A stretch of 64,000 nt of DNA from Gammaproteobacteria bacterium (GTDB lineage Bacteria; Pseudomonadota; Gammaproteobacteria; VBWC01): contig JAHFRU010000001.1 in NCBI GenBank assembly GCA_023266115.1, forward strand, positions 186,001 through 250,000. Direction: 5' to 3'. How positions within the stretch are numbered: the first letter of the stretch is position 1; every line of letters begins with the position of its first letter. The translations under genes were made by a program, and so were the position numbers. The notes beneath the pieces were generated by a model. The model made no database searches. It was not told the origin of the DNA and saw nothing but the letters and a program-made list of their open reading frames with translations. Positions 10,046 through 63,594 of the stretch are shown in pieces.

Positions 10046-10444
10046 TATATTTTGATGACTTTCTTCGCAGAATGAGCGGTGGTTGTTGATTCGGATGCAG
10101 TTAGCGATATCAAGATCGCCGGTAACAATACCAAACCGGTGGATTTTCGTCACCCTTCGCGTGGCGGGAAGTGGCCACCAACGACGACCCGCGGCGTGCG
10201 CACCACGCGCGGATATCCTTCCGCCGGCCAGAATTATGGGCTGGCCCGAACAGCAGGATTTTTAAAGCTTTTTGAAATCTGCCCGATACGTATATCCAGG
10301 TATCCCGGGCGACGTTACCCACGCGAACGAGCACCTGCGCCGCCAAATTCGGAGATGTGTCTCAGGGACAGAGCATTGTGTTTCCCGTCACCAAGATAAA
10401 TGTCAGCAACGCCATAGAGGCTCGGCTGTGCCGCGCCTGATGCT
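10046..10444. other. Divergent intergenic region ugd/prsK
   Basis: There are 399 bases between outward-facing ugd and the PrsK-like kinase. It is expected to hold both promoters, but I could not identify a convincing -35/-10 pair or a sigma-54 site on either strand. Small open frames here have no ribosome binding site or recognisable content. Confidence 0.4.
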
Positions 10445-20169: not shown

Positions 20170-20236
20170 TGAGGCGCCAAACCGGGTGAGTATCTGGATA
20201 GCACGTTGGATTTGAGCGGATATGGGAGTGGTTTAG

Positions 20237-21031: not shown

Positions 21032-21070
21032 GGCTATTGGCAGATCATTGATGGTTAGCAAGGTATAAAG

Positions 21071-36943: not shown

Positions 36944-37271
36944 AACGTTAGTTTTCGACAAGGTCTAAAACGGTACGAACGTGTTTACTGCAAGGAAACG
37001 AACCTTCCTTGGCGTGCTTGCGCTCTTGGTGCTCAGCCCGGTTCTAACGGTGTGCACAAATAAAGCTGACGACGGACTATTATAGCAATCATGGTAATCC
37101 GCCGCGCTTGTGATTATAAACATATGAAAAACAACCTATTAAGAAGATATTCGATAACTGACAGGTTTGCCTACGCAGTGGCTGCCTTGTAAAAGAGCCT
37201 TCAGCTGCTCCGCGTGTAAAGTAATCAGGAATGGCGACGGTTACCGGTCGTCGCGCATGTTTTGCAATACC
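36944..37271. other. Intergenic region between the two SGNH genes
   Basis: This 328-base gap holds the likely promoter of the minus-strand SGNH gene. I saw no gene, no clear terminator for the gene ending at 37272, and no sigma-54 site. A short AT-rich stretch lies around 37110-37150. Confidence 0.4.
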
Positions 37272-40163
37272 CTAGTTCGCTACGACAATCGCTACATAAT
37301 TGGAATTTGCGCCGCTCGATCCCGCCGCTGCATTTCCCCCGAGCGTGATCGAGCCCGCACTATACGACCGGCTATACAAGTTCAGAATCGGTGAAAACGA
37401 ATCGGTCGTTCCCACTGTCAGACCGGTATTCGTAAAGGTGCTCATCCAGGTCGGCAGGGCCGTGGCCCCGGCGTCATACGCGATGTAAACCGTCACGGCA
37501 CGATCGGTCGTAAAGCTGATGTAGCTGGGCGATGTGTTGCCGACATCGGCATTGGCCGTCATGATCCAGCGTCCGCTGGCCAATACCGACGGTACCCCAT
37601 TCAGGGTATACGACGCGTCCACATAGTAGCTATCACCAGTCTCCAGCAAATTTTGCTTGAGATATGGCGCCACGGTGGAAGGTACCAGACTGCCGAGTAC
37701 GAAGGGCAGGGCTACCGGTGATCCCGGATTCAGCGCGTTGTGCCACAGCGCCGCTATTACCGCATACCCCAAACCATTCGGATGCCAGACGTCGGCGAAC
37801 AGGCTATAGCGGTTTTGTCCCGCCCCAAGGAAATAGGCATAGAAATCTGGGCCCTGTTGGTGTCCGGTCAGCTGGCTCGAAATAACACTGTTATAGGGTT
37901 GCACGTAGTTGGTATTCGCCGTCGCGGTGGCCGGATTGGCGAACGGCGGTGGACTGCCAAACACCGGCGGCACCTTGGCGACATAGACCGTCTTGCCGGC
38001 GGTGGCAAGGGTATTGATCAACGATTGCATATTGCCCTTGAACGTACCGGTACACGCAGCACCCGAGCAGCCGCTGCCACTGGGAATCTGCGCCAATGCG
38101 TCATTGGTGCCGAGCAGCACCAGCGCCTTGTTACTGCCCGGGTGACGCGCCAGTATCGAATTGACGCGCGTGAATGCCGCATCTGCGGATTCATCGCCGC
38201 CGATGCCCTCGTTATAGACCATCACAGGTTTGACCTGCGATTGCTCCAGCAGACGGGCGACGTCGGCCGGGTATCCCTGGAAACCGAGGATACGCGCGGT
38301 CTGATTGTCCGTCGCGTAGTAGTCACGGCTGCCATTCGTGATGCTATCGCCAATGGCGGCATAGTAATCGCCGTGCGTACCGACGAGCGTGTTGGTATCT
38401 CGGGCCAGTTCCAGATTATTGGTATCGCGGATAATCGCGTCGATCGTATGGTCGCCCGCGGCGAAACCGGTGAAGGTCGCGCTGTACGGGGATGTGGCAT
38501 CCAGCATCGACTGGCCGCCATCCAGTAGAAATTCGACCTTGCCGCCAGCCGGGACGTTCGTTGCGATGGCGATCGCGGTGAGGGTAGCGCTGTTAGTCGT
38601 TACGGTCCGGGCTACCGGCGTGGCCAGAGTGATCGTCGGTGTCGTTGCCGCTTCCTGGATCAGCACGTTGTCAAACGATGCCTTGTCCTGGGTATACAGC
38701 GCCACGGAGCCGGACGCCAGACTGGTGTCGTTCGCGGCAAACACCGGGTCGCCATTGACGAACACCTGGATCAGGGAGCCGCTGACGTCCACGGTAAAGG
38801 TGAGCAATTGTCCCGTGCTATAACCGATAGCGTTCACTGCCAGCGAGCTGAAGACGCCGCCGATCTTTTTTTCCAGGCGCGTGTAGCCATAACGGGAATT
38901 CATCGACAAACGATAGTAGTTGTTGTTGTTCTGGTAACGAAACATCACGCCGATGTCTTCCGCCAGCTGGGTGCCAAGAAAGGTGGCATCAACGCTGAAA
39001 CGATAATTCGTTAACGTGGTGCCGACCGTATGATAGGCGTAGGTGCCTTTATGGTAGGTTTCGCTCAATGCGCCCAGCGCGCCATTCTGCTGTTGCAGCG
39101 CGCCACCGATGACGGCCCACGACGAGGCAGTGCCGCCATCATCGACAGTCGTCCAGTGACTGGTTCCAGCATTGAAGTTATCCCTGAACACGACGTTTAC
39201 GGTGACCGAGCCAACGCTGGTGCCGCCACGTCCGTCATTGATGGTGTAGGTAAAGGTTTCGGTACCGAAGAAATTCGCGGCCGGGGTATATGCCAGCCCA
39301 TCACCCGCGCCGTTAATAGTGGCGATTCCACCGTTATTCGGGATGCTTACGGCGGAGATGATCAACGGATCGTTCTCGGAATCGAAGTCTACGCCGTTGC
39401 CGTTATTGGCCAGCACGGCCAATGTGGTCGTGCTGCTCCCGGTCACCGTAAAAACGTCGTTTTTGGCGATGGGCGGATCGTTTACAGCGATAATCGTGAC
39501 GGCAACCGTAGCAATGTTCGAGGTGTTGTCGACAATATCCCGAACGGTATAGGTGAACGAGTCGGCGCCCGAATAGTCAAGGGCAGGCGCGTAAGTGATG
39601 TTGCCATTGCTGCTGATATCGGCGTTGCCGTGTGCAGGCAATGATGCCAGTGTCACTGTCGCCGGGTTCAGCACGCCATTGGCGCTCGAGTCGTTGGCCA
39701 TGACACTGATGGAAATTGGCGTGTCTTCGCTGGTTGTCGCTGCGTCATTCAGGGCAACGGGCGCTACCCGGTTCGGCAGGATATTCACCGACACAACCGC
39801 CAGTTCCGAGTCACCGAAACCGTCGTTGACCTTGAAGGTAAAAAAATCGCTGCCGGTGGCGTTGTTATTCGGCGTGTAGGTAAATTCACCACCGGCCTGA
39901 TTCGAAACCACAGCGGTTCCACGAGTACCGTTCGCTACGATGCGATACGTCGGAATGCGTCCGATCAAAATCGTCGCGTTGAAATAGCCCGTCACAGGCG
40001 TGTTTTGCAGCGTGGATATCGCGCTCGACTTTACCGTGGCAAGCGCGGAGTCGGTGCCGCCACCGCTGCCTCCCGATCCGCCGCCGCAGCCGGCGAGTGC
40101 AAGTAACAGGCACCCGGTTAGGGCGCCGCGCCGGGCATGCGTGATGTGATTGGTGGTATACAT
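37272..40163 (-). CDS. Lipoprotein SGNH/GDSL hydrolase with cadherin-like repeats
   Basis: Start at 40163 (963 residues), chosen because gggaggag precedes it and it places a lipoprotein signal (LLLALAGCGGGSGG) at the N terminus; an upstream start adds 16 residues. After a glycine/serine linker come three cadherin-like/VCBS-type domains (about 60-330, with repeats such as DSFTYTVRD and ETFTYTINDGRGG), a laminin/DUF1080-like domain, an Ig-like domain, the SGNH domain (IGDSITNGS, LGTNDAL, DVWHPNGLGY) and the shared ~110-residue C-terminal domain. It is a paralogue of the 33437-36943 product from the laminin-like domain onward. Surface attachment by lipid is likely; the target ester is unknown. 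Confidence 0.84.
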   Translation of the reverse strand: MYTTNHITHARRGALTGCLLLALAGCGGGSGGSGGGTDSALATVKSSAISTLQNTPVTGYFNATILIGRIPTYRIVANGTRGTAVVSNQAGGEFTYTPNNNATGSDFFTFKVNDGFGDSELAVVSVNILPNRVAPVALNDAATTSEDTPISISVMANDSSANGVLNPATVTLASLPAHGNADISSNGNITYAPALDYSGADSFTYTVRDIVDNTSNIATVAVTIIAVNDPPIAKNDVFTVTGSSTTTLAVLANNGNGVDFDSENDPLIISAVSIPNNGGIATINGAGDGLAYTPAANFFGTETFTYTINDGRGGTSVGSVTVNVVFRDNFNAGTSHWTTVDDGGTASSWAVIGGALQQQNGALGALSETYHKGTYAYHTVGTTLTNYRFSVDATFLGTQLAEDIGVMFRYQNNNNYYRLSMNSRYGYTRLEKKIGGVFSSLAVNAIGYSTGQLLTFTVDVSGSLIQVFVNGDPVFAANDTSLASGSVALYTQDKASFDNVLIQEAATTPTITLATPVARTVTTNSATLTAIAIATNVPAGGKVEFLLDGGQSMLDATSPYSATFTGFAAGDHTIDAIIRDTNNLELARDTNTLVGTHGDYYAAIGDSITNGSRDYYATDNQTARILGFQGYPADVARLLEQSQVKPVMVYNEGIGGDESADAAFTRVNSILARHPGSNKALVLLGTNDALAQIPSGSGCSGAACTGTFKGNMQSLINTLATAGKTVYVAKVPPVFGSPPPFANPATATANTNYVQPYNSVISSQLTGHQQGPDFYAYFLGAGQNRYSLFADVWHPNGLGYAVIAALWHNALNPGSPVALPFVLGSLVPSTVAPYLKQNLLETGDSYYVDASYTLNGVPSVLASGRWIMTANADVGNTSPSYISFTTDRAVTVYIAYDAGATALPTWMSTFTNTGLTVGTTDSFSPILNLYSRSYSAGSITLGGNAAAGSSGANSNYVAIVVAN

Positions 40164-40202
40164 CTTGATCGGGAGGAGTTTTTCGTGCCTGTTTACGCAG
40201 TC

Positions 40203-40220
40203 GGGCCCCAAAAGGGGCCC
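40203..40220. repeat. Perfect hairpin between the FGE-like and SGNH lipoprotein genes
   Basis: A 7-bp GC-only stem (gggcccc / ggggccc) with an AAAA loop sits in the 85-base gap. On the minus strand it lies after the stop of the FGE-like gene and before the SGNH ribosome binding site. It lacks a T-run on either side, so it could be an RNA-stabilising or attenuating hairpin rather than a terminator. Confidence 0.5.
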
Positions 40221-49108: not shown

Positions 49109-52100
49109 ATGGGTAGCGACATGACAATTAACAACTTCTATAAGAGCGTTCTTGGGGACTATGAGAAAAATCTGGGTATCTTTTTCGATCCGGACACTGG
49201 GGCTGTTGTCGAGCCGGGCCGTGCAGACGGTACGCCGAGGTTTCTTTTTACCGAGGTCACCGGGTATGCAATTCTCGATGACTTGACGTTGCTGTCGCTG
49301 ACGGGCAACCGGCGATATCTCGCCAAGGCAAAAAAAAGCGCCGAGTGGATCATGAGCCACGCCCAGGACCCCTCCGGTGGCGTGCTGACCCGGTACTATT
49401 TTGAGCGGGATGGCGAGCCGGACCTTGCCGACAAGTCGTTTGCCGGGCGACGGATATTCTCCTTCGATGTCGCGATCTGTTTGCGTGGCATGGTGGCGCT
49501 CTACCGGTTTGCCGGTGACGAACCGGTACTACGTTCTGCCATTCGCATGGGCGATTACCTGGTAGAGCGGGTCATCAGCCCGAAAGGCGAGGTCGACGCC
49601 ATCTATGATGCCGCCAAGGGTGAACCGGTACCCGCCGAGCGGGCCAAGTGGTCGAGGCGCTTTGGCGCATTTCATTCCAAAGTCGCCGAAGCACTTATCG
49701 ATCTGTACGAAGCCACGAATCAGGAGAAATACTTCTCCGCCGCCGAATCCATCTGTCGGAACGTGCTGCAGTTCCAGTCGCTACGGGGCAACTTCGAGAC
49801 ATCCAGCGGTCGAACCGAATTGCATCCCCATTGCTATGCTACCGAGGGCCTGTTACATGTGGGGCGCAAGACCAATAACGACGTTCTTATCGAGTCGGCC
49901 CGGCGAGCGACCGAGTGGGCGCTGGGGCACTGTAAAGAGGGTGAGATTCCTCAGGTCATCGACTCGTCGGAAGACGTCCCGCTGGCGCGTTTCCGAACAG
50001 ATGCGCTTTCCCAGGTTCTGGCCCTTGCCGCCGATCTGATGCAGATGGGGCGACTCGATTCTGCCTGGCAGCCGGTGTTGGACCGGTTGGCGGCCAAGCT
50101 GCTCGAGATGAAAAAGGGCGGCGATGGCTATTTTCAGTATGGTTTCTACGAGAGGGAATTTCAGGGCAAGCTGGAGGCCGACACGCAAAGCTACTGGACC
50201 AACATGTTCTGTTTGCGTGGTCTGAGTAAATACTACCTGTCGTCAATTCTGAGCGATACCTATGTGGCGATACTGGCCGGCGGGATCGGGTCGAGGGTTT
50301 GGCCTATCTCCTGCGAAAATCGTCCGAAGCCGGTGTCCTATTCCTTGCTTGGCGACCGTTCGTTATTGCAGGAGACCATACGACGATTCACACACGATTA
50401 CTTCATCAGGCCGGATCGCATATTTATTCTGTGCAGTGCAAACGCGCTGGATAAAGTGTCCGATCAGGCGGGGCAAGAAGGGGTTCCGATAGAGAACTGC
50501 GTTATTGAAAAGGAACCCAAGGGAACTATCCCGGCGGTGGGCCTTGCGCTGGATGGTCTGCCCATCGACGGTGATCAGCAAAATCGCCTGGTAATTATTT
50601 CCATGGGCGATAATGTGATCGCCCCCTATGCGCGATTTCAGCATGCAGTAGCCTGCGCCTTGATTACCGCGCGAGAGAACAGTTGCATAGTCAGCATAGG
50701 GAAACCCGCGGACAAGAGCGCGGCTATCGATATTCGATTCGGGCACCACTTATATACCAGAAAATTGCACTCCTATCGGTCCTATGAGGTCCCCCGGTTT
50801 ATTGAAAAGCCCGGTCAGGAAGATTTTGAAGAAGTCAGAAATGCGCCTGGAAGCCTCGCGTGGGAATGCGGTGCGATTGTATTCAACGAGTCCTACTATC
50901 GAAGGTTGGTGCCTGGCAAGCCGCAGTCCGGAAATCTCGCTGAGAATCTTCTTTCCCGCGCCGCGCCATGGAAACGGGACGACGATGGTCAAGTCAGACT
51001 GGCGACGTCGATTCTCGATCCTGAAGCACGCTTCGAGGATTTTGGTGTCCCGGGAACAAGCGTAAAACGGTTTTATCAGGGACACAACAGATTCGATCGC
51101 GGCGATGGAAATGTTTGCCTGGGTCAGCCGGAAAAGGTGACGCTGCTTTCCTGTGCCGATAACCTGGTGATTTCGGATGACCTGCCGATCGAGATAATCG
51201 GTCTTCGAAACCATGTCGTTATCGACAATGCGATGACCAACACGGCCGTTGTCATGCCGATTGAGGAGGTCCGGCATTTGCCAAATCTTTATCGATTATT
51301 CTCCGGATCGAAGCGCTACGAGGCGTTTATTGAAGGAGGGCCCAAGGCATTGGTCGCTGATCCGACGACATTCGTTGAGAAAAGTCCCGATGTCAGCGCA
51401 AATTCAGATTTCGGATTGGTCTTTGCCTATAACATAAAGGAAAAGTTGTCCATTCGGCGTAACAAGAGAGGGCTGCGTATCGTCAACGGGACATATCCTG
51501 CGCTGCATGACAACGACTTCAATGTCTTAATGAAAAAGCAGTCGGAAGATCCCCGGCTGGTCGAGCATTTGATCGATGTTGGGACGCTGGCAAAGGCTCT
51601 TGTTGGTGGATCGGTTGCCCTTTCGGAAACGGGCGCCGATTTGCTGAGCAAGCTCTGTCTGTATCACGCGATTGGCGGGTATCTGACCGAGGCGGGAGAG
51701 CGAAAAGAGGCGGAAGCAATTACGCGATTTCGTGCTATTTCGAAACTTGACCGCCGGTTTCTTGATTCGCGGGTCGTTGATGAATTGATGACATTGTACG
51801 GCCGAAGCGACGCTGATTCGAATGCCACGTCAGCGCAGCTATTAAGCGACAATGTAAATTCAGCGGTAGCGTTCTTGCGAGCCGGTGTTGTGGAAAATCC
51901 CGATTTTCGGGATATTCTCGTGGCGTTGATTCAGGTACAGGATAATCCTCACGCATTTGCTGCATTCAGGAAGGATGTGCTTCAGCCTGTATTTGCTGAG
52001 CTGGAGGACGAAATCATCCGGGTGTTCGCGTGTTTCAAGGTGGCAAAAAATATCGTCATGGGGCGTTGGCTATGGCGGCGACGTAACCTGAAGGAGACAG

Positions 52101-52603
52101 GGGCCGCGCAGGGTATATTTCTTCAGCATGATCGCGGAGATCTGGAAGATTTGCCGTTTATTCTGTCGTTCACGGTGAAGTGGCTCGTCAGCGCTGGCAT
52201 TGATCCGCAGATATATGTTGATCGCGTCAACGAAATTCTTGCCAGAAACGATAAGGTCTTCATCGACCTCATACATAGATTGCAAGGCGGTACCAAGATG
52301 TTGTGGTCCGGCGTCGTTTATCTCGCCATGGTCACGAAAGGGCCCGGCAGCGACCGTGAGTCCATTGCACGCACGCTGGAGGACGCCGTGGAGGATATTG
52401 AAAAAAATCCGGATCAATATTTTCAGTACTCGCAGATTCTGGAGCTGCCGTTTCTGTTGGAGGATGTGGCGCCGGTTTGTAGCTCAATAACCCAGGGGTC
52501 GGTTGCGATGGTCAGGGAGCTGATAGTCGACTGGTACCACAAAAACTGGAGGAAGATTAAACCGCATGCGCATAACGGGCTCGTTTCCAGGCTGGTCTCG
52601 TAA
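49109..52603 (+). CDS. Three-part fusion: toroid-like domain + mannose-1-phosphate guanylyltransferase + unknown helical domain
   Basis: 1164 residues. Part 1 (about 1-380) is helical with repeats typical of (alpha/alpha) toroids seen in N-acylglucosamine 2-epimerase or C5-epimerase/GH families (AFHSKVAEALIDLYEATNQEKYFSAAES; HPHCYATEGLLHVGR). Part 2 (about 385-735) is a sugar-nucleotide pyrophosphorylase: LAGGIGSRVWPIS, RPKP, EPKGTIPA, MGDNVI, FIEKP, WECGAIVFN and a beta-helix end LPIEIIGLRNHVVIDN, matching GDP-mannose pyrophosphorylase (ManC) with altered loop residues. Part 3 (about 740-1164) is mostly helical and unlike the cupin that follows ManC in bifunctional enzymes; I do not recognise it. 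It lies 47 bases after wecB. Start could also be ATG 49121. The product is probably a GDP-sugar; the toroid may act on the same sugar. Confidence 0.72.
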   Translation: MGSDMTINNFYKSVLGDYEKNLGIFFDPDTGAVVEPGRADGTPRFLFTEVTGYAILDDLTLLSLTGNRRYLAKAKKSAEWIMSHAQDPSGGVLTRYYFERDGEPDLADKSFAGRRIFSFDVAICLRGMVALYRFAGDEPVLRSAIRMGDYLVERVISPKGEVDAIYDAAKGEPVPAERAKWSRRFGAFHSKVAEALIDLYEATNQEKYFSAAESICRNVLQFQSLRGNFETSSGRTELHPHCYATEGLLHVGRKTNNDVLIESARRATEWALGHCKEGEIPQVIDSSEDVPLARFRTDALSQVLALAADLMQMGRLDSAWQPVLDRLAAKLLEMKKGGDGYFQYGFYEREFQGKLEADTQSYWTNMFCLRGLSKYYLSSILSDTYVAILAGGIGSRVWPISCENRPKPVSYSLLGDRSLLQETIRRFTHDYFIRPDRIFILCSANALDKVSDQAGQEGVPIENCVIEKEPKGTIPAVGLALDGLPIDGDQQNRLVIISMGDNVIAPYARFQHAVACALITARENSCIVSIGKPADKSAAIDIRFGHHLYTRKLHSYRSYEVPRFIEKPGQEDFEEVRNAPGSLAWECGAIVFNESYYRRLVPGKPQSGNLAENLLSRAAPWKRDDDGQVRLATSILDPEARFEDFGVPGTSVKRFYQGHNRFDRGDGNVCLGQPEKVTLLSCADNLVISDDLPIEIIGLRNHVVIDNAMTNTAVVMPIEEVRHLPNLYRLFSGSKRYEAFIEGGPKALVADPTTFVEKSPDVSANSDFGLVFAYNIKEKLSIRRNKRGLRIVNGTYPALHDNDFNVLMKKQSEDPRLVEHLIDVGTLAKALVGGSVALSETGADLLSKLCLYHAIGGYLTEAGERKEAEAITRFRAISKLDRRFLDSRVVDELMTLYGRSDADSNATSAQLLSDNVNSAVAFLRAGVVENPDFRDILVALIQVQDNPHAFAAFRKDVLQPVFAELEDEIIRVFACFKVAKNIVMGRWLWRRRNLKETGAAQGIFLQHDRGDLEDLPFILSFTVKWLVSAGIDPQIYVDRVNEILARNDKVFIDLIHRLQGGTKMLWSGVVYLAMVTKGPGSDRESIARTLEDAVEDIEKNPDQYFQYSQILELPFLLEDVAPVCSSITQGSVAMVRELIVDWYHKNWRKIKPHAHNGLVSRLVS

Positions 52604-52746: not shown

Positions 52747-53829
52747 ATGACTTTCGAACGGAGTGGCGATGAATTGCCCGCCAGGCCACAACGCGCTGAA
52801 CCCTCGGCAGTTGTAATCTCGATGCGGATGAGCGGTCATGCAGGACCGTCCGGCTATGACCGGCTGGTTGATTACCTTCCTTGTAACGTCATTAGACCAC
52901 CAGTCAACTGGTCTTTTAATCAACGGGCCGTGGCAAAAGTATTAAAGCCGCTTATCAAGAAGGCCGGGTCGCAGTGGTACCAGCGGGGTAATTTGATCTG
53001 TGAGTTGGCGGCTGGCGCACGATGGTGGCGAGAGGCGGGACAGGTGTTTCATTTTCTCTACGGGGAGAATTCATATTGCTATCTGGGGCATTTAAAGAAG
53101 TTTTCCAAACCGAAGCCGATAGTTTGTACGTACCATTTGCCTCAGGAAAAGTTTCGTAGAATCGTTTTTGACACTAGGCCGATCAAACGACTGGACGCGG
53201 TAGTCGTAGTATCCACGGTGCAGCGGGATATATTTTCAGATCTCGTAGGCCAGGATCGGATTCACTACATTCCACATGGAGTCGACGTTCAATACTTCCA
53301 GCCACCCACGACCCCTGCCAAGAGCAACAAGTTTCGCTGCCTGTTTGTGGGGTCGCATCTCAGGGATTTTGACGTTTTTGCAGCGGCGGCCAAGATTTTG
53401 CGCGGTAAGGAAATAGAGTTCGTTGTCGTAACGTCACCATCCGAACACGATCGTTTCGCCGGGCTCGACAATGTGACGATTTTGAATGGGATAAGTGACA
53501 AGGAGCTATTGGAGTTGTATCAATCGTCGCAGCTGTTTGTCATGCCGATAACGGATGCAACTACTAATAATGCGCTGCTTGAGGCGATGGCGTGTGGACT
53601 GCCGACAATAACAACCGATTTTGTCGGGATACGCGATTACGTGGACGAGTCCGCGGCTATTCTGACGAAACGAGGGGACGTCTCTTCGTTTGTTGATGGA
53701 ATAAACTACCTGTACGGTAACGATTCTCGACGAATGGATATGGGGCGTGCTGCCCGCGAACGAGCGCTTGCGCTCAGTTGGGAGCGAGTTGCCGGTCAGG
53801 TTACGACGCTATATGGCAGGTTAATTTAG
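52747..53829 (+). CDS. Glycosyltransferase, GT4-like
   Basis: 360 residues; GT-B fold. The C-terminal domain has FRCLFVGSHLRDFDVFAAAAKIL and the donor-binding NNALLEAMACGLPTITTDFVG motif with its conserved glutamate. The N-terminal 30 residues are unusual (MTFERSGDELPARP); a start at the in-frame ATGs near 52822/52828 would give a more typical N terminus, so the start is uncertain. It is followed 45 bases later by another GT4 gene, so the two may act in sequence. Confidence 0.82.
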   Translation: MTFERSGDELPARPQRAEPSAVVISMRMSGHAGPSGYDRLVDYLPCNVIRPPVNWSFNQRAVAKVLKPLIKKAGSQWYQRGNLICELAAGARWWREAGQVFHFLYGENSYCYLGHLKKFSKPKPIVCTYHLPQEKFRRIVFDTRPIKRLDAVVVVSTVQRDIFSDLVGQDRIHYIPHGVDVQYFQPPTTPAKSNKFRCLFVGSHLRDFDVFAAAAKILRGKEIEFVVVTSPSEHDRFAGLDNVTILNGISDKELLELYQSSQLFVMPITDATTNNALLEAMACGLPTITTDFVGIRDYVDESAAILTKRGDVSSFVDGINYLYGNDSRRMDMGRAARERALALSWERVAGQVTTLYGRLI

Positions 53830-53874: not shown

Positions 53875-55095
53875 ATGAACGGCAGTCAACTCAATATTGT
53901 TTTATATGTGAATAGTTTTCTTCCGGCCCTGGGAGGAAGGGAGTTCGTCATCCACTATCTGGCGGATGCATTATTAACGCTTGGACACAAGGCCAGGGTT
54001 GTCGGCCCCGCGGGGTTCTGGAAGCACCGCCAGCTGCGGTTTAACTACCCTGTCCATCGATGGCCAACGCTCAGGGGCATGTTCCCTGAGCAGGTATCAA
54101 TGGCGCATCTGGCGCTGGATACTGCGCTTTGGTCCTGTGATGTCGTTCACGCGCACAACACCTATCCGACCGGGTACACCGCCGCGCGCTTAAAGCGAAC
54201 CAGGAGTATTCCGCTGGTTATTACGCCGCACGGGGAGGACATACAGACGATTCCGGAGATAGGCTACGGTCTCATGCTCGATCCGGGCCTCAGACAGAAA
54301 ATTGTTCTGGCGTTGAAAACCGCAGAACGTATTACCGCGATCAGTACGAAGATACGAGATGTATTAATGGAGGCAGGAGCCGCTGCTGATAAAATCCGGC
54401 TGGTGCCGAACGGCGTGGATTTAAAACGATTCGGTCAAGCAGCCACACTGAATGTGCGTGAGTGGCTCAAAGTAGAACAGGACGCGCGTCTGATAGTGAC
54501 GATAGGACGTTATAATCCGCGCAAAGGGCAGGAGTACTTGGTTCGGGCGATGCCACGAATCCTCGCGCAAGACCAGCATGCAAGATTGGTGATCGTTGGT
54601 GAGAAGACAGAAGTGTTAAGGCCCCTCATTAAAGAGGTCGGCATGGAAGGCAAGGTTATTCTTACCGGGGGAATTAACCCGTCGCAAAATATTCTAAATC
54701 GCGTAACAAAAACATCGCTTCAGCAAGCTGAGCCGGATTATCTTGCCGAATTATTGTGCAGCAGCGAACTTTATGTATCCGCGGGCACCGATGACAATTC
54801 CGAAGGGCTGTCACTGGCGGTACTTGAAGCGATGGGAGCAGGGCTCCCCGTCGTGGCCACTAATATTTCCGGAAACAAGGATGTTGTCAGCGACGGTAAG
54901 AACGGGTATCTGGTCGTGCCCTCGAATGAAGCAGAGTTGGCCGATGCGGTCTTAAAGGTGTTTGCGCGTCGTGATGTTCGGAGCGACATGGTTACGGCAG
55001 CGCGGGCTGTGGCATCCCAATACGATTGGGTAAACGTTGCTCGTCAATATGTGGATGTCTACCGGGATGCCATCGAATGCCAGAGGCGTAAGTAG
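53875..55095 (+). CDS. Glycosyltransferase, GT4-like
   Basis: 406 residues. The N-terminal domain opens NIVLYVNSFLPALGGREFVIHYLADAL with the glycine loop; the C-terminal domain contains TIGRYNPRKGQEYLVRAM and the EGLSLAVLEAMGAGLPVVAT donor-binding motif. The VTPHGED-like segment (VITPHGEDI) supplies the central histidine region. This is a standard retaining GT4. It is 120 bases before the asparagine-synthetase start, so probably within the same transcription unit. Confidence 0.87.
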   Translation: MNGSQLNIVLYVNSFLPALGGREFVIHYLADALLTLGHKARVVGPAGFWKHRQLRFNYPVHRWPTLRGMFPEQVSMAHLALDTALWSCDVVHAHNTYPTGYTAARLKRTRSIPLVITPHGEDIQTIPEIGYGLMLDPGLRQKIVLALKTAERITAISTKIRDVLMEAGAAADKIRLVPNGVDLKRFGQAATLNVREWLKVEQDARLIVTIGRYNPRKGQEYLVRAMPRILAQDQHARLVIVGEKTEVLRPLIKEVGMEGKVILTGGINPSQNILNRVTKTSLQQAEPDYLAELLCSSELYVSAGTDDNSEGLSLAVLEAMGAGLPVVATNISGNKDVVSDGKNGYLVVPSNEAELADAVLKVFARRDVRSDMVTAARAVASQYDWVNVARQYVDVYRDAIECQRRK

Positions 55096-55215: not shown

Positions 55216-57147
55216 GTGTGCGGTATAGCCGGTTTCTGTGATTTCCGAAAACGCCTGACTCGTGACGAGCTAAGGCGCATGACCGATGTTTTGTGGCATC
55301 GCGGGCCCGACGGTTCCGGTTATGAATTCTACCCAGTGGGCAACGCACATATCGGTTTGGGGCACCGGAGATTGTCGATTATCGATTTGTCCGCCGGTGC
55401 TGCACAGCCGTTGAAGGATGAGAGCGGCGACTACGTAATCGCGTTTAATGGCGAAATATATAACTACGTTGAAATACGGGAAGAGCTTAAAAAGCAGGGA
55501 TTTAAGTTTTTCACTTCCTCCGACACTGAGGTGTTGTTGAAGGCGTATATAAAATGGGGGGTCGACGCGGTACATAAGCTGATCGGCATGTTCGTATTCA
55601 TCATCTACGACAAAAAGAAAGAGAAGCTGTATCTTTTCCGGGACCGGGCGGGCGTAAAGCCTCTCTATTACAGCTATAAAGACGGGCTATTTCTGTTCGC
55701 ATCGGAGCTCAAGGCTTTTCATCAAACCGCGGCATTTGAAAAAGAAATCGACGCTGACTCGTTGCCGTTGTATTTCAGGTTCGGATACGTGCCTGCTCCG
55801 TACACGATCTTCAAGAATACCTACAAGCTCAAGCCGGGCCATTACTTAACGATCGATTTGAACTCCCGGGACCTGAAAGAAGAAAAATACTGGGATGTTA
55901 TCGATTATTACAATATGCCGCAGCTCGACATTTCGGAGCCCGACGCGGTTGATGAAATGGAAAAGTTGCTGGTATCGGCCTTTCGGTATCGCATGGTCGC
56001 AGACGTACCGGTGGGGGTTTTTCTCAGTAGTGGTTATGACAGTACCGCGGTGACTGCGTTGTTGCAGACCGACATGACGGATCGGCTGAAGACCTTTACG
56101 ATTGGATTTGACGATAAGCGCCACAACGAAGCGAACGAGGCGAAGGCCATCGCTGAGTATCTAGGTACTGATCATACCGAATATTACTGTTCCGAGGCGG
56201 ACGCAAAAGAGATCGTGTCGACGCTGCCATATTACTATGATGAGCCGTTTATCGATACCTCTGCCATACCAACGATGCTTGTTAGTCGTATGGCGAGGGA
56301 GAACGTAACGGTGGCATTGTCGGCTGATGGCGGAGATGAGACCTTCGTCGGATATGACCATACAGAAGAATATGTTGACGACTACCGTAAGATACTCAGG
56401 TATCCGCCCTGGCTAAGGCGATCATTTAACGCATCTACAGGTTATTTATCGAACGTCTCCAAATCGTACCGTGGTTACAACAAGCAGGTTCAGATTCTAT
56501 TAAACCAATTCTGGAAGCTCAGATCGCGCTGCTCTGTCGATCAGTTAATCGATATCTTTCTACAAGGGAGATGCACGGATTACCGGATCTATCGATTACT
56601 CAATACAACGGTAGATACAAAAAACGCGTTCTTTAATAACGCCACCAAATTAAGCGGCGGTATCGATGATATCACCAAGAGTCTGGCGATCGACTATCAG
56701 AACTATATGGTCGATGACATCTTAACCAAGGTGGACAGGGCTACGATGTCAGTCAGTCTGGAAGGCCGAGAGCCGCTTCTGGATCATAGAATCATAGAGC
56801 TGGCGGCACGCTTGCCGTTGTCGTACAAATATGATCGCGGAAGCCGGAAAAAGATTCTAAAGAAAATTGTACATAGACACGTTCCAGAGCCTCTGATGAA
56901 CAGACCTAAGAAGGGGTTTGGCATTCCCGTCAATAAGTGGCTGCGAGGGGATCTGTCGAAACTACTTTCGTATTACCTTGATGAGCCGCGACTGAACGAT
57001 CATGGACTTTTTGATACAGGATATGTGACATACCTGAAGAACAGATATCTCAAGGACGGTTCCGAATACAACATCGTGTGGACGATTCTGGTGTTTCAGA
57101 TGTGGTATCAGAAGTGGATCAAAGGCGAAGGCGAAATGATTACCTAA
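55216..57147 (+). CDS. asnB: Glutamine-dependent asparagine synthetase homologue
   Basis: 643 residues. I chose GTG at 55216 because it puts the catalytic cysteine at position 2 (MCGIAGFCDF), which the N-terminal nucleophile glutaminase requires; gaaaggga is upstream. The glutaminase domain shows RGPDGSG, FNGEIYNY and SSDTEVLL. The synthetase domain has the PP-loop SSGYDSTAV (about 269-277) and SADGGDE. In polysaccharide clusters such enzymes amidate uronic acids (as WbpS does in Pseudomonas O antigen), so amidation of a glucuronate or related sugar is possible. Housekeeping asparagine synthesis is the alternative. Two glutaminase-deficient paralogues follow. Confidence 0.9.
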   Translation: MCGIAGFCDFRKRLTRDELRRMTDVLWHRGPDGSGYEFYPVGNAHIGLGHRRLSIIDLSAGAAQPLKDESGDYVIAFNGEIYNYVEIREELKKQGFKFFTSSDTEVLLKAYIKWGVDAVHKLIGMFVFIIYDKKKEKLYLFRDRAGVKPLYYSYKDGLFLFASELKAFHQTAAFEKEIDADSLPLYFRFGYVPAPYTIFKNTYKLKPGHYLTIDLNSRDLKEEKYWDVIDYYNMPQLDISEPDAVDEMEKLLVSAFRYRMVADVPVGVFLSSGYDSTAVTALLQTDMTDRLKTFTIGFDDKRHNEANEAKAIAEYLGTDHTEYYCSEADAKEIVSTLPYYYDEPFIDTSAIPTMLVSRMARENVTVALSADGGDETFVGYDHTEEYVDDYRKILRYPPWLRRSFNASTGYLSNVSKSYRGYNKQVQILLNQFWKLRSRCSVDQLIDIFLQGRCTDYRIYRLLNTTVDTKNAFFNNATKLSGGIDDITKSLAIDYQNYMVDDILTKVDRATMSVSLEGREPLLDHRIIELAARLPLSYKYDRGSRKKILKKIVHRHVPEPLMNRPKKGFGIPVNKWLRGDLSKLLSYYLDEPRLNDHGLFDTGYVTYLKNRYLKDGSEYNIVWTILVFQMWYQKWIKGEGEMIT

Positions 57148-57197: not shown

Positions 57198-58964
57198 ATG
57201 TCTAAACTGGTACTTGTGTGCTCTCGATCGGCGGATCAATTTCCTCGGGGGGCAAAAACGATCAATGAAATATCTAAAAGGCTGACCCCGGATAATATCT
57301 CCGCTCGTCCGCCTATGGTACTTATGGGCGATGGCATAGTGATCGGTATAGTAAATCCTGTCGCGTCGTTGCCAATTAAGCGTTGTAGCGTTTGTCTGGG
57401 AACATTTTTTGGCGCTGCTGATGATTGGTGGATGCCCGGAGCCGATGCGCCAGACGGTAACTACGCATTGTTTCGAAGTGGCGAATACCAAGTAGAACTG
57501 GTGAGCGATGCCGTTGCGTCTCGGACGATCTGGTATGCGAAAACGGATGAACTGTTTATCGCCTCCACGTCGCAACGCGCCATCGTTTATTTGCTTCAAA
57601 GCTACGAGCCGAACACCAGCGTTTATACATGGATGTTGTCGTCAGGAACTCTCGGTTCCGGATTGTCGTGGGATAGGCGAGTTCAAGGCGTTCCAGTCGA
57701 TGCGCGCCTGATGTTGGACCGACGTGAGTGGACGACCAAGCTATCAACCGAGACGGTTTACTTTTCTGCCGAGAAACTTTCTGATAGAGATCACGAAAGA
57801 AACCTGCGGAAAGCGATAACTGATACATTTGATCATCTAGATATGGAATTAGACAAATGGATATTGCCGTTGTCGGGCGGTTATGACAGCCGCGCGATCC
57901 TGCAGATGCTGACGGATCGGTCAGGGCTGAAAGCAATCACATGGGGCCTGCGGTCCGCACTCCATAACAAGAAAAGTGATGCCTGTGTCGCGCGCGATCT
58001 CGCACAGAAGTACGGGATACCTCATGAATATTTGGAAACGGATTTATCTGATGAGCCTGTGAATGAAATATTCAAGCGATTTCTTGTTGCGGGCGAAGGT
58101 CGCGTGGATCACATATCGGGATACATGGATGGGTTTTCGATATGGAAGCATCTTGTTGAGTCTGGTAATTACGGCGTAATTCGCGGAGATTCAGTATTCG
58201 GCTGGATACCTGTAGCAAATCCGATCGACGTAAGGCGTGCCGTTGAGTTGTTACTTTTGAGCGATTATCGGAACCTTGGAAAGGTTCCGTTTCATGAGCA
58301 GTTTGAACAGCACCTTCCAAAGATATTTGATAAACGGGAGAATGAGTCGTTAGAGGCATGGCGAGATCGTTTATATCAAAGTTTCCGCATACCCGTGGTG
58401 ATGGCGGCTCTCAATGATTTGAAAAACTCTTACGTCGAAATTATTAACCCACTATTGTCCAGGCGGATAGTTCGCGCTGTTCGAAAAATGCCGGATCGTC
58501 TCCGGACAGACAGAATGTTGTTCAAGAAAATCGTTGTCGCTGCAAACAGGGACATTCGGTTTGCGGAATATCCGGCAATAGAAATGTCGTCAAATATCTT
58601 GAAAGATACGAGAGTGATCGACCATATCATGGGGACGCTACTCAGCGCGCGCGCCGAGAAGCTGTTTCCCCCCGTTTTAATTCAGCTGTTAAAAAAACAT
58701 ATTTTCGGCGACGGTCAGCTGGCCTCCCCCTATAGGCCTGCTAATACGAATATGAAGGCGATCCTCAAGAATATTCTGCCCAAAAAGGCTATCGATACGG
58801 TAAGGCCCGTTGTAGCCTGTCTTTGGCGCTCGTCGTCGAGTATCGAGCTGGATTTATACAAGCTGGCGTTTCGGGCGTACATAATTTGCGAGATGGATCG
58901 CATGTTGTGTGAAGATGCAGGCGCTCTAGTCGTAGACAAAACAGCGAAGTCTCTCAAGACCTAG
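57198..58964 (+). CDS. Asparagine-synthetase-like amidoligase without the glutaminase cysteine (copy 1)
   Basis: 588 residues. The C-terminal part is an ATP-pyrophosphatase synthetase domain with PP-loop LSGGYDSRAIL (about 225-235). The N-terminal part keeps the Ntn-like layout (APDGNYALFRSGEYQVELVSDAVASRTIWYAKTDELFIA) but begins MSKLVLVC, so position 2 is serine and the usual RGPD and NGEIYN residues are missing; glutaminase activity is unlikely. Such proteins adenylate a carboxylate and join it to an amine (as in lasso cyclases or beta-lactam synthetases). No precursor-peptide or RiPP maturation gene is nearby. It is 50 bases after asnB and paralogous to the next gene. Its carboxylate and amine are unknown. 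Confidence 0.75.
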   Translation: MSKLVLVCSRSADQFPRGAKTINEISKRLTPDNISARPPMVLMGDGIVIGIVNPVASLPIKRCSVCLGTFFGAADDWWMPGADAPDGNYALFRSGEYQVELVSDAVASRTIWYAKTDELFIASTSQRAIVYLLQSYEPNTSVYTWMLSSGTLGSGLSWDRRVQGVPVDARLMLDRREWTTKLSTETVYFSAEKLSDRDHERNLRKAITDTFDHLDMELDKWILPLSGGYDSRAILQMLTDRSGLKAITWGLRSALHNKKSDACVARDLAQKYGIPHEYLETDLSDEPVNEIFKRFLVAGEGRVDHISGYMDGFSIWKHLVESGNYGVIRGDSVFGWIPVANPIDVRRAVELLLLSDYRNLGKVPFHEQFEQHLPKIFDKRENESLEAWRDRLYQSFRIPVVMAALNDLKNSYVEIINPLLSRRIVRAVRKMPDRLRTDRMLFKKIVVAANRDIRFAEYPAIEMSSNILKDTRVIDHIMGTLLSARAEKLFPPVLIQLLKKHIFGDGQLASPYRPANTNMKAILKNILPKKAIDTVRPVVACLWRSSSSIELDLYKLAFRAYIICEMDRMLCEDAGALVVDKTAKSLKT

Positions 58965-59040
58965 CCGTCGATGTTTCAGAATACCTCGCGGTTGTCGATA
59001 CCTTTGGTGCCGAGGGGGAATCTGAGCGTGGGGGAGTTTT

Positions 59041-60759
59041 ATGTCGAAAGCGGTGTTTGTCACGACACGAATCGGGGCGCCGGTCAAGTTTGACGGACGC
59101 CACATCACGGCGCTATCGGCGCGATTGACGCCGGATAATATTAAGCCGGTACCGCCCACGGTTATTGAAGGTGACGGCATCCTGCTTGGGATTATTAATC
59201 CAACAGACTCTTTAAGGATCCAGGGATGCAGTGTTTGCATGGGGACATTGTTCGGTTACAGCCCCGACTGGTGGCGGCCGGAATCGGACGCGCCGGATGG
59301 CAGCTACGCGTTGTTTCGGGGGGGTGAGAAGACGGTCGAGCTTCTGACGGATATCCTTGCGTCGCGTACGATCTGGTATGTAAAGACTGATGACTTGTTT
59401 ATCGCCGCTACCTCGCAGCGGGCCATCGTTTATTTTCTGCAAAGCTACCAACCAAACGAAACTGCCTACCCCTGGATGCTGTCGTCCGGTACTTTGGGGC
59501 CCGAGCTATCCTGGGACAAAAGAATACGGTGTCTTCCAGGGGATGCGCGCCTCATACTGGATAGGGAGAGCTGGGAGCTCAAGCTCGACAGAGCGCCGGT
59601 TGCTTTCCGTGCGGATAACAGCTCGAAGAATGAGCATGAGCAACGTCTCAGAGACTCAATCCAGAACACTTTTGATGGGCTGGATCTGGATTTTGACCGA
59701 TGGGTACTACCACTGTCCGGCGGTTACGATAGCCGGGCGATACTCCAGATGTTGAAGGACAGGCCTGGTCTGAAGACAGTCACATGGGGCGTCAAGGCGG
59801 CGCTGTCAGATGAAAACGGCGATGCATGTGTGGCGAGGGATCTGGCTAGTCATTATCGCGTTCCTCATCAGTACTTCTATACGGACTTGTCCGATGAGAA
59901 TGTGGAATATCTCTTTACGCGATTTCTAGTCGCTGGCGAAGGGAGAATTGACCACATCTCCGGATATATGGACGGATTCGCGATTTGGAAAGCTCTATAT
60001 GAAAGGGGTTATCAAGGAATTATCCGTGGCGATGAGGCTTTCGGATGTCGCGCTATACGGAGTGATCGGCAGGTCTATAAAAACATGGGCATGCAGGTGC
60101 TATCCGATTTCGAAAATGTCGGGATGCTTCAAGAGGAATGCGGGGCGGGCATTCAGGTATGGCCACGTAGTATTGAAAGACAACCGGATGAAAGTCGCGA
60201 AACATGGCGGGACAGGGCAAATACGTTATTCGAGTTTCCTTTTGTATTTGCTGCGCTCAGCGATCTCAAGCTCTCTTATGTCGAAATCAGCGCACCGCTG
60301 CTGTCCAGGAAAATCATTACACAGGTACGATGTATGCCGGATAGTTTGCGGACGAATAAGAGCTTGTTTAAACACATGGTCACGCAGAATGGGCCGGGTA
60401 TCCGGTACGCGACAGGTGCTGCGATCGAATCGCGAGACGATATTCTACGCAGCGACACGGTCGCGTCTGCCATTCGCAATGGCCTGCGTCAGGAGCGTGC
60501 CGGGAGTAAGCGTATCGACATCCTTAGCCGGTTCGCTCTCGAGCTGTTGGCGAATGAAACCGCTTTGCCGGGGAGGCTATCGATCAACAAAGGGGAGAGA
60601 ATTATTCGGCGGATCAGGGCGATGCTCTCTATCAGGAGTCAGGGTATGTTATTGGATCCTTATCTGTTGGCGTTCCGCGTATACATTATTCGTCGAATGC
60701 ACGAGATATTGGACAGCGACGCGAGCGCGTTCTCCATGACTGCATTAGGAGATCAATAA
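59041..60759 (+). CDS. Asparagine-synthetase-like amidoligase without the glutaminase cysteine (copy 2)
   Basis: 572 residues. Alignable over the whole length with the previous gene: both start MSK, both have RLTPDNI, WMLSSGTLG, the PP-loop LSGGYDSRAIL at about residue 225, VAGEGR.DHISGYMDGF.IWK and the SYVEI..PLLSR motif near 410. Differences in the C-terminal third suggest different carboxylate or amine partners. The N-terminal serine and the missing glutaminase residues are shared, so the loss predates duplication. A 76-base gap separates the two genes. It is the last gene before a 550-base noncoding stretch. Confidence 0.75.
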   Translation: MSKAVFVTTRIGAPVKFDGRHITALSARLTPDNIKPVPPTVIEGDGILLGIINPTDSLRIQGCSVCMGTLFGYSPDWWRPESDAPDGSYALFRGGEKTVELLTDILASRTIWYVKTDDLFIAATSQRAIVYFLQSYQPNETAYPWMLSSGTLGPELSWDKRIRCLPGDARLILDRESWELKLDRAPVAFRADNSSKNEHEQRLRDSIQNTFDGLDLDFDRWVLPLSGGYDSRAILQMLKDRPGLKTVTWGVKAALSDENGDACVARDLASHYRVPHQYFYTDLSDENVEYLFTRFLVAGEGRIDHISGYMDGFAIWKALYERGYQGIIRGDEAFGCRAIRSDRQVYKNMGMQVLSDFENVGMLQEECGAGIQVWPRSIERQPDESRETWRDRANTLFEFPFVFAALSDLKLSYVEISAPLLSRKIITQVRCMPDSLRTNKSLFKHMVTQNGPGIRYATGAAIESRDDILRSDTVASAIRNGLRQERAGSKRIDILSRFALELLANETALPGRLSINKGERIIRRIRAMLSIRSQGMLLDPYLLAFRVYIIRRMHEILDSDASAFSMTALGDQ

Positions 60760-61309: not shown

Positions 61310-62419
61310 GTGAGGTCTGGCGAGAGGCGATTGTGTATTGTGTCTCCGTGTCATTGGACAGGTGGTTTTGGCGGGTCGGAGCAGCAGATATCACTATTGC
61401 TGGATGTACTTGTGGCTCAGACACGATTTGATATCACCTACGTTGCTCGGCAGGCCGATCCGGGGTTCCAACCGACTGGGTACAAAGTGGAGCAGATTAA
61501 TGTCAGTCCCTTTTCCAGCCGTGTTGGTAATTTGCTTGATGCACGACCATTGTTAGCTGCGCTGCATAAAATACGACCGCACGTTATTTATCAGCGCGTC
61601 GGCGGTGCGTATACAGGAATAGCGGCTTACTATGCCAAAAGAAATAACTGCAAGTTGGTGTGGCATATATCGAGTGAGATGAATGTATTGCCGTTTCGAA
61701 TGGACAAAAACAGGTCTTCGAATACCGTATCGCGGTATATAGAAAAGAAGGCGCTGGAGTACGGCATTCGTAACAGCACCAGCATTATTGCACAGACGGA
61801 ACAACAAGCAGGGTTGCTTCAAAAGCACTACGGAGTTACCGCCGCGCGGATCGTTCCGAACTTCCAGCCGGTACCCGTCGAGCCGAAAAAACAGGATACC
61901 CCTGTCAAGGTAGTATGGGTGTCCAATTTAAAGCCGATGAAGAGACCGGGGTTATTCATCGATCTCGCCAGAAAATATCAGTCAGATGTCGACGTGAAAT
62001 TTATTATGATTGGCCGCGCAGAAAACTCGTTATGGTGCAAGCAGGTTATCGAGGAAATCAAGGATGTACAATCGCTTGATTACGTCGGAGAACGAACCCA
62101 GGAAGAGGTAAACGCTATCCTGGCACAATCGCATATATTCGTGAACACTAGCAGTTACGAAGGCTTTCCTAACACTTTTATTCAAGCATGGATGCGCGAG
62201 GTTCCGGTGGTTAGTCTTGATGTCGATCCCGATAATATCCTGTCATCCCGCAGCATCGGGTACCGCTCAGGATCATTCGCCGCCCTTTGCCGGGACCTTG
62301 AGAAACTGATTGGAGACAAGCAACTTCGCCAGTCGATGGGAAATGCCGCAAGAGATTATGCGATAGAAAATCATTCGGAAAAGAATATTGAGAGCGTCGT
62401 GAAGGAATTAGTCGGATGA
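61310..62419 (+). CDS. Glycosyltransferase, GT4-like
   Basis: 369 residues; GTG start at 61310 with aaggag nine bases upstream. The N-terminal domain has the glycine loop HWTGGFGGSEQQISLLL; the C-terminal domain has VSNLKPMKRPGLFIDLARKY and the donor-binding NTSSYEGFPNTFIQAWMREVPVV segment. The stop overlaps the next gene's ATG by four bases (ATGA), so both are translationally coupled. It begins a separate transcription unit after a noncoding stretch that contains a plausible promoter. Confidence 0.86.
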   Translation: MRSGERRLCIVSPCHWTGGFGGSEQQISLLLDVLVAQTRFDITYVARQADPGFQPTGYKVEQINVSPFSSRVGNLLDARPLLAALHKIRPHVIYQRVGGAYTGIAAYYAKRNNCKLVWHISSEMNVLPFRMDKNRSSNTVSRYIEKKALEYGIRNSTSIIAQTEQQAGLLQKHYGVTAARIVPNFQPVPVEPKKQDTPVKVVWVSNLKPMKRPGLFIDLARKYQSDVDVKFIMIGRAENSLWCKQVIEEIKDVQSLDYVGERTQEEVNAILAQSHIFVNTSSYEGFPNTFIQAWMREVPVVSLDVDPDNILSSRSIGYRSGSFAALCRDLEKLIGDKQLRQSMGNAARDYAIENHSEKNIESVVKELVG

Positions 62420-63594
62420 TGCGCGTGGAGAAACCCGATAAACGGCGAATCATATGGTTGGACGCAGATCGATTCGACACCAAGCCAAATAAAAGTCCGT
62501 GGATCGAAATGTCGAAGGTACTTCAGGCGCATGGGTTCGACGTTACGCTTGTCACAGGCTATGAAAAAGCACCATATGAGAATGAACATCTGGATGTTGT
62601 ATCGCTGCGGGTATGGGACATTCCGTTTATCTTTCGTATAGCGTTATTGATCAGGATGCTCTCATGGGTAGTTAGGAATGCCAGCAGAGACGATATTATT
62701 ATATTAAAACCGGAATCGTTGCTTATTGCCCCCAGCCTAAAGAGACGCGGCTTCCATAAACTGCATCTCGATGTGCGGACACTGCCGTTGAGAGCGCTAA
62801 GCTCTTTCAAAGGAAAGGTAGATCATTGGGTATTCTGGACTTTTACGATCGGACAATTGCGAAAATATGCGTCGAGCTATTCGTTTATCACTGAACGATT
62901 GAAATCCGCAATAGAGCAGGAGTTTCGTGCCGTATTCGATGATTATGTCATCTGGCAGTCCAGCGTGAATATGAGCGTCTTCCGATCTGTGGAAGCGCCG
63001 GGTCGTGGAATAAGCAGAGAACTATTCACGGTGTTTTACCACGGAAGTATTTATGGAACTCGTGGAATAGATAAGGTCATTGAAGCGATGTCGCTGCTGT
63101 CGCCGGCTTATCGAGGCCATATACGGTTTGTGATTGTGGGGCCGGATTCAGGAAAGATCGCGCTGCAGGATATCGTTCGTCGGCACGGAGTCGCCGATAG
63201 CGTCACGCTTGTCGGGTACGTTCCGTATGAAGATATTCCAAATAGAATCGCACAGGCCGATTGTTGTATTTGTCCGCTACCGGATCTGCTCGAGTGGAAC
63301 GTTTCAAGCCCGCTTAAGGTGTTTGAATATATGGCATGTGAGAAGCCTGTTATTCTGACCCCGATTCCAGCCCATAAGGATGTCGCCGATGGGAAGGATT
63401 TTGTGGTGTGGACGAAGGGATGCGAGGCCAGTGATATTCGAGAGGCTATCGAATATGCGTTCGATCATCGGAGTCAGCTTGCCGACGCGGCGAGAGCGGC
63501 GCGTGATTTTATGCGGGACACGTACGACTGGACAACCCAGGGACGTCACTTCGCCGATTATCTTGGCGGCAGATATCTTCGGGAACCGTCGTGA
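62416..63594 (+). CDS. Glycosyltransferase, GT4-like
   Basis: 392 residues, overlapping the previous gene by four bases. The C-terminal domain is clear: VFYHGSIYGTRGIDKVIEAM, FVIVGPDSGK, and the donor-binding SSPLKVFEYMACEKPVILTP with its conserved glutamate. The N-terminal domain (about 1-200) is standard GT-B. ATGATG offers two adjacent starts (62416 and 62419). The next gene begins nine bases after the stop, so it shares the operon with the polymerase/ligase-like membrane protein. Confidence 0.85.
   Translation: MMRVEKPDKRRIIWLDADRFDTKPNKSPWIEMSKVLQAHGFDVTLVTGYEKAPYENEHLDVVSLRVWDIPFIFRIALLIRMLSWVVRNASRDDIIILKPESLLIAPSLKRRGFHKLHLDVRTLPLRALSSFKGKVDHWVFWTFTIGQLRKYASSYSFITERLKSAIEQEFRAVFDDYVIWQSSVNMSVFRSVEAPGRGISRELFTVFYHGSIYGTRGIDKVIEAMSLLSPAYRGHIRFVIVGPDSGKIALQDIVRRHGVADSVTLVGYVPYEDIPNRIAQADCCICPLPDLLEWNVSSPLKVFEYMACEKPVILTPIPAHKDVADGKDFVVWTKGCEASDIREAIEYAFDHRSQLADAARAARDFMRDTYDWTTQGRHFADYLGGRYLREPS

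Follow-up and report, generated by a model that had tools for sequence, protein, structure and literature searches.

Two tandem glutaminase-less asparagine synthetase-like proteins in a gammaproteobacterial exopolysaccharide locus, candidate ligases for coupling amines to glycans

What might an asparagine synthetase-like protein do when its glutaminase site is gone, and why are two such proteins encoded side by side with an intact relative in a glycan locus? The question is raised by a 64,000-nucleotide stretch of an uncultured Gammaproteobacteria bacterium (GCA_023266115.1, contig JAHFRU010000001.1, positions 186,001 to 250,000), called the window here and used for all coordinates below, which comes from a 3.1 Mb assembly that is 98% complete. 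It contains an intact AsnB followed by two paralogous genes that we call AMS1 and AMS2. A preliminary description of the window had claimed that both paralogues keep the PP-loop but lack the glutaminase nucleophile and the RGPD and NGE residues, and the open reading frames and our alignments of 30 and 42 proteins agree. Its broader account of glutaminase-dead, amidoligase-type proteins next to an intact AsnB in a glycan cluster also holds, and the pairing with AsnB recurs for relatives in genome G285 and in Streptomyces clavuligerus.

All three genes lie on the forward strand. AMS1 (57198 to 58964) and AMS2 (59041 to 60759) both start with ATG, encode 588 and 572 amino acids, and are separated by 76 bp, with a clear ribosome-binding site ahead of AMS2. 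The two proteins are 50% identical across 580 aligned positions, which extend from Met1 almost to the C terminus. Immediately upstream, the intact glutamine-dependent AsnB-type amidotransferase (55216 to 57147, 643 amino acids) starts at the GTG at 55216 (MCGIAGF), rather than at the TTG at 55210 given in the list of open reading frames. All of its glutaminase residues are present, its PP-loop reads LSSGYDST, and it passes TIGR01536 easily (470 bits, cut-off 267.1), scoring 536 bits against the XrtA/PEP-CTERM amidotransferase family TIGR03108, below the cut-off of 816.9. BLAST aligns AMS1 with this neighbor weakly (22% identity over 201 positions, E 0.004).

The alignments of 30 and 42 proteins include 18 intact AsnBs, all of which have Cys2, RGPD, the Leu of the RLS motif, Asn-Gly, and the glutaminase Asp. 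AMS1 and AMS2 lack Cys2, RGPD, the RLS motif including its Arg, NGE, and the glutaminase Asp, residues that are conserved in 16 to 18 of the 18 intact enzymes, and the same losses are seen in six of six close homologues. The last part of the N-terminal domain can still be recognized, reading DGxYALFR...SDxxxSRTIWY...FIAxTSQRAI in AMS against GMFxFxxxD...RDRxGxKPLYY...FxSExKA in AsnB. The synthetase part retains the PP-loop LSGGYDSR at residues 225 to 232 (57870 to 57893 in AMS1; 59713 to 59736 in AMS2, by alignment), Asp331, and Glu414 followed, after three residues, by Pro-Leu-Leu. The AMS1 loop, with its clade-marking Arg232, is invariant in all six close homologues, as are Asp331 and Glu414, and the longer LSGGYDSRAIL is identical in four lineages that share about 40 to 50% overall identity. 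Three residues before Asp331, AMS proteins have Ile or Val. Residue 439, the site of a conserved AsnB Lys, is Lys in AMS2 and in the homologues of genomes G101 and G211 and is Arg in AMS1 of both available species (58512 to 58514), so the paralogues may differ in activity. A gap opposite this Lys in the 42-row MAFFT alignment proved not to be real, since reading the motif by eye gives Lys or Arg at 439. Taken as a sequence pattern, the retained residues would fit Mg-ATP binding and adenylation of a carboxylate.

An alternative start codon that restores Cys2, which the preliminary description had itself named as a possible refutation, was sought for both paralogues and not found. The one candidate was an in-frame GTG-TGC at codon 7 of AMS1 (57216 to 57221), which would give MCSR. 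We rejected it because the sister species reads TTA-TGC there, and the GTG-TGC is probably fortuitous. A protein started at this GTG would still miss the other glutaminase residues, and neither AMS2 nor the G101 protein has a Cys at the site. No start followed by Cys was seen in the codons ahead of either annotated ATG. The MSK or MSQ start is common to all six homologues (MSQ in G101), and the G101 and G211 genes, like AMS2, have clear ribosome-binding sites at their starts.

Curated families recognize these proteins poorly. The Pfam Asn_synthase model PF00733 (cut-off 21) matches AMS1 at 21.7 bits, AMS2 at 18.3 (below the cut-off), and the G101 and G211 homologues at 29.3 and 32.1, covering the PP-loop part only, and no glutamine amidotransferase domain was matched by Pfam in either AMS protein. 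Against TIGR01536 they reach 18.7 and 15.1 bits, which places them outside that family, and an NCBIfam search gave no detectable match to TIGR03108. The best NCBIfam match of both is the macrolactam cyclase family NF033561 (40.5 bits, E 1e-10, and 36.4 bits, E 2e-9; cut-off 300); the lasso peptide cyclase family NF033535 gave no match at E values up to 1, and searches of PDB sequences with AMS1 and with a six-row profile returned chance matches only. In comparisons between profiles, AMS strongly matches AsnB (97.7%, E 2e-12) across the end of the N-terminal domain and the PP-loop domain, and it matches other glutaminase-less relatives (99.6%, E 2e-24) over residues 85 to 468, while those glutaminase-less proteins as a clade match AsnB at 100% (E 1e-42).

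These relatives were found by running a nine-row profile over 369 genomes of the class, scoring three candidates per genome and reading the top loci. The best matches, down to 168 bits, are all glutaminase-less and all carry SGGxDSR, and they come from the genus of the window and from G101, G211, G306, G147, G308, and G285. The next-best 22 loci read have Cys2 and RGPD in every case and an Arg after the PP-loop Ser in none. Within three candidates per genome and the top loci, at least 8 of the 369 genomes therefore hold a glutaminase-less SGGxDSR gene. The same traits appear in haloarchaeal plasmid genes annotated as "asparagine synthase-related protein" and in an S. clavuligerus gene, and the Arg is present in 21 of 21 clade members read. 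In a maximum-likelihood tree of 42 proteins, these 21 all fall on the same side of a branch supported at 100/100, the word "clade" presuming that the root lies on the other side of this split. We tested for a tree artefact from the shared absence of glutaminase columns; the synthetase domain alone, with the Arg masked, retains the split from the intact enzymes at 97/99. AMS groups with the G306 protein (96/87), although the order within the clade is unsure because several branches are long. Loss of Cys has also occurred elsewhere, as three proteins that lack Cys2 yet have Ser after the PP-loop group with the intact enzymes. AMS1 and AMS2 themselves lack Cys2, RGPD, and NGE, carry the Arg, and stand on the SGGxDSR side of the supported branch. 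By sequence, then, they are a sharply defined subfamily within a larger glutaminase-less clade that spans Gammaproteobacteria, haloarchaea, and Streptomyces. Our searches of the open-access literature found no described member of this clade. The preliminary description had considered the make-up of the locus unlike any known; this survives for the function, which is undescribed as far as we found, and not for the arrangement, since tandem or paired glutaminase-less relatives occur elsewhere.

The trio is present in the same gene order in both available genomes of the order, the second being a metagenome-assembled genome of a sister species ("Gammaproteobacteria bacterium," contig VBWC01000010.1). 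Ratios of nonsynonymous to synonymous substitution rates (dN/dS) between the two are 0.27 for AMS1, 0.15 for AMS2, and 0.09 for AsnB, so all three genes are under purifying selection, and a layout kept at these values is not due to chance. Within AMS1, residues 1 to 90 (57198 to 57467) are the fastest-diverging part, with 76% identity between the species compared with 95% at residues 461 to 588; this steep gradient suggests that the 5' end is under relaxed constraint or has recombined. A search for close relatives covered 369 genomes sampled from the class and 398 from the phylum, and among these only G101 and G211 had further full-length copies. G101 carries one AMS copy in an exopolysaccharide locus homologous to that of the window, the two sharing two glycosyltransferases, a polymerase, an epimerase, an FGE-like gene, and secreted proteins. 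The AsnB of the G101 cluster lies about 14 kb from its AMS gene, is 35% identical to the window AsnB, and belongs to another branch of the tree. No matches were found among viral contigs with the AMS profile or among plasmids with AMS1 in tblastn.

What reaction could such proteins catalyze? We propose that AMS1 and AMS2 are ATP-dependent ligases of the asparagine synthetase fold that couple a glycan-linked carboxylate to an amine other than glutamine-derived ammonia, and we consider the balance for and against this proposal about level. The PP-loop and the later Asp would bind Mg-ATP and adenylate a carboxylate, most likely one on a sugar nucleotide, a lipid-linked sugar, or a nascent exopolysaccharide unit. 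The amide would then form by attack of an amine from solution (an amino acid, amino alcohol, or amino sugar), and the intact AsnB upstream would probably contribute a plain uronamide to that glycan, the kind of product that WbpS makes. Catalytic activity, adenylation, the identities of carboxylate and amine, and the division of labor with AsnB are all what we infer from sequence. The preliminary description had likewise favored amines other than ammonia, which is also our preferred reading. Nothing identifies the uronic acid that it named as the substrate; a UDP-glucose 6-dehydrogenase-like gene on the reverse strand of the window (8717 to 10153; PF00984; TIGR03026 at 457 bits, over its cut-off; TuaD at 501 bits, below its cut-off) could supply one.

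Several observations weigh against this proposal. The possible uronic acid source just mentioned is about 47 kb from the trio and on the other strand. In AMS1 an Arg occupies the site of the conserved Lys, and the DR..M motif and a Lys and a Trp near the C terminus, invariant in intact AsnBs, are not retained in AMS, which implies that the second substrate site has changed. The single G211 copy sits between ygfZ-like and tolC-like genes, and the 13 kb read around it contains no gene for glycan synthesis. A structure prediction from four sequences gave an unusable model with a mean predicted local distance difference test score of 35.

The surroundings of other clade members were read as raw counts, for leads only, and members are often found in glycan loci. 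Haloarchaeal relatives in glycan clusters or beside FemAB-like or GNAT genes count in favor of the proposal. Halorussus vallis, Halorientalis, and G308 have glutaminase-less genes in tandem or in pairs, with one Halorussus partner and one G308 partner more divergent by motif. Besides the genus of the window, G285 and S. clavuligerus have an intact AsnB close to a clade member, at about 1.3 kb in each; the S. clavuligerus run also includes a sugar epimerase and a radical SAM gene. In one Haladaptatus and two Halomarina loci, a FemAB-like or GNAT gene is next to the member or comes after it, and six loci have sulfatase/phosphodiesterase-superfamily genes next to a member or not far from it (G308, G147, Halorientalis, Haladaptatus, Halomarina, and Halorussus); other haloarchaeal members have neither type of neighbor. 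Two of these regions are of interest in their own right. Besides a sulfatase and two sulfotransferases, one glycan locus of G308 (L092, 5846 to 18129) holds three glutaminase-less asparagine synthetase-like genes that differ in type. A haloarchaeal operon of a glutaminase-less asparagine synthetase-like gene, a phosphodiesterase/alkaline phosphatase family gene, and a GNAT/FemAB-like gene is kept in two genera (L095, 6001 to 10608; L096, 6001 to 10684), and the culturable Haladaptatus salinisoli is one species that has it.

Among the alternatives, the one that survives best, though we consider it unlikely, is that the AMS proteins are no ligases at all and serve as pseudo-enzymes with a regulatory or scaffolding role, binding ATP or a sugar nucleotide and controlling either the intact AsnB or the glycosyltransferases. 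Loss of several invariant AsnB residues, the Lys-to-Arg change in AMS1 together with the highest dN/dS of the trio, and the lone G211 copy outside a glycan locus could all be read this way. The PP-loop and Asp, however, are near-invariant even in distant members, which is hard to explain without nucleotide chemistry, and the clade does not track AsnBs of the window type.

It is improbable, in our estimate, that AMS1 and AMS2 simply amidate with ammonia, whether free or supplied by the intact AsnB in a complex, and so produce plain uronamides on different sugars. AsnB is adjacent in both species and lies near a glutaminase-less relative in G285 and S. clavuligerus, and asparagine synthetases with a dead glutaminase are still able to use ammonia in vitro. 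The ammonia tunnel of asparagine synthetases, however, runs within one chain, and loss of the whole glutaminase core, not of the Cys alone, suggests that this tunnel is gone. The two genes are also not always together, with no AsnB on the 13 kb read around the G211 gene and an AsnB of another branch in the G101 cluster, which makes supply by a neighbor less likely. The suggestion in the preliminary description that the intact enzyme delivers ammonia is thus not upheld.

Action on proteins or peptides in the manner of lasso or macrolactam cyclases, with a secreted protein of the cluster as one conceivable substrate, seems to us quite a remote prospect. NF033561 is the best curated family match, and secreted-looking proteins of 405 and 797 residues are encoded downstream of the trio, with homologues beside the G101 gene, but the scores fall far short of the family cut-off, most clade members examined adjoin sugar genes, and no precursor peptide or partner for a ribosomally synthesized and post-translationally modified peptide (RiPP) was noticed, no systematic search having been made. 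Least probable of all is use of the PP-loop for other chemistry, such as nitrile formation or transfer of a carboxylate to an ester or phosphate linkage in step with the sulfatase/alkaline phosphatase-superfamily neighbors of the six loci above. In its favor are those neighbors and the asparagine synthetase-like PesC, which makes a nitrile (PMC13060819). Against it, PesC still uses glutamine, the window has a sulfotransferase and an FGE-like gene but no adjacent sulfatase, and the neighbor pattern is a raw count.

The proposal of glycan-amine ligases can be extended to the clade as a whole, and there we are doubtful. The SGGxDSR proteins would then be one ancient family of glutaminase-less PP-loop ligases that attach amines or amino acids to the acidic sugars of bacterial and haloarchaeal surface glycans, a role not so far attributed to the asparagine synthetase fold, with AMS1 and AMS2 as a divergent tandem pair serving two different substrates.

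The trio belongs to an XrtA-type exopolysaccharide locus in the window, with genes for the PrsK and PrsR regulators, export, chain length, a tyrosine kinase, and many glycosyltransferases, along with CDP-glucose and epimerase genes, a wecB-type epimerase, the TuaD-like UDP-glucose dehydrogenase on the reverse strand, a sulfotransferase, and an FGE-like gene. Four glycosyltransferases on the forward strand flank the trio. Upstream in the same gene run are 52747 to 53829 (PF13692/PF00534) and, directly before AsnB, 53875 to 55095 (PF00534/PF13439); downstream are 61310 to 62419 (PF00534) and 62416 to 63594 (PF13692), each with a 45% identical gene in the G101 AMS locus. The XrtA/PEP-CTERM-type genes at 10445 to 21955 include PrsK, PrsR, two XrtA-associated ATPases, and export and chain-length genes; no exosortase (PF09721) was matched in the 98% complete genome. 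Other features of the window are a 1164-amino-acid fusion at 49109 to 52603, kept in the sister species, that joins a GH127-like region and a nucleotidyltransferase domain to a long C-terminal part without a named domain; two very large proteins encoded within the locus (33437 to 36961 and 37272 to 40211, reverse strand) with Big_9/cadherin-like repeats, a 3-keto-disaccharide hydrolase domain, and a GDSL lipase domain; and a DUF4910/DUF2172/HTH_47 protein (29361 to 30686) adjoining ABC transporter and sugar-nucleotide genes.

When amines are amide-linked to uronic acids, capsules, lipopolysaccharides, and archaeal glycans change in charge and antigenicity, and only a small number of the responsible ligases are known. 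The Arg after the PP-loop, together with the missing glutaminase, offers a simple handle for finding candidates in bacteria and archaea. If our reading is true, the asparagine synthetase fold has been turned into glycan-amine ligases, as it has into makers of beta-lactams and lasso peptides.

Comparison with known systems sets out both the kinship and the differences. AMS shares with AsnB (TIGR01536; PF00733 plus glutamine amidotransferase) the two-part layout and the PP-loop domain, recognizable by profile comparison, but differs in the loss of the glutaminase nucleophile and its partner residues, in the Arg after the PP-loop Ser, and in the loss of DR..M. Beta-lactam and carbapenam synthetases also have this fold without glutaminase activity and use an intramolecular amine as nucleophile. 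Their catalytic Tyr, which we take to lie three residues before the Mg-binding Asp, is replaced by Ile or Val in AMS, which lacks both a direct PDB sequence match and a beta-lactam context. Lasso and albusnodin/ikarugamycin macrolactam cyclases (NF033535 and NF033561) form amides without glutamine and include the best curated match of AMS, whose score is nonetheless far below the cut-off and whose surroundings, not searched systematically, showed no RiPP precursor. The haloarchaeal and bacterial "asparagine synthase-related proteins" with SGGxDSR lack Cys2 and the glutaminase motifs, carry the same Arg, and belong to the same clade; they are 15 to 22% identical to AMS1, and their N-terminal region is nearer the normal layout. 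WbpS and the TIGR03108 proteins are glycan-cluster amidotransferases of the same superfamily and resemble the intact AsnB of the window, whereas AMS1 and AMS2 have neither a TIGR03108 match nor a glutaminase site. PGN_1234 (WbpS), an AsnB homologue, is required for a uronamide, and the amino acid that this sugar carries is determined by VimA, a protein matching the PEP-CTERM FemAB family (PMC7468200). In Campylobacter, the C-terminal domain of Cj1438 couples the carboxylate of capsule glucuronic acid to ethanolamine phosphate or serinol phosphate at the expense of ATP (PMC11800379). Together with PGN_1234 and VimA, this precedent makes the steps proposed for AMS plausible, the Campylobacter amidoligase performing the same type of reaction but with an unrelated ATP-grasp fold.

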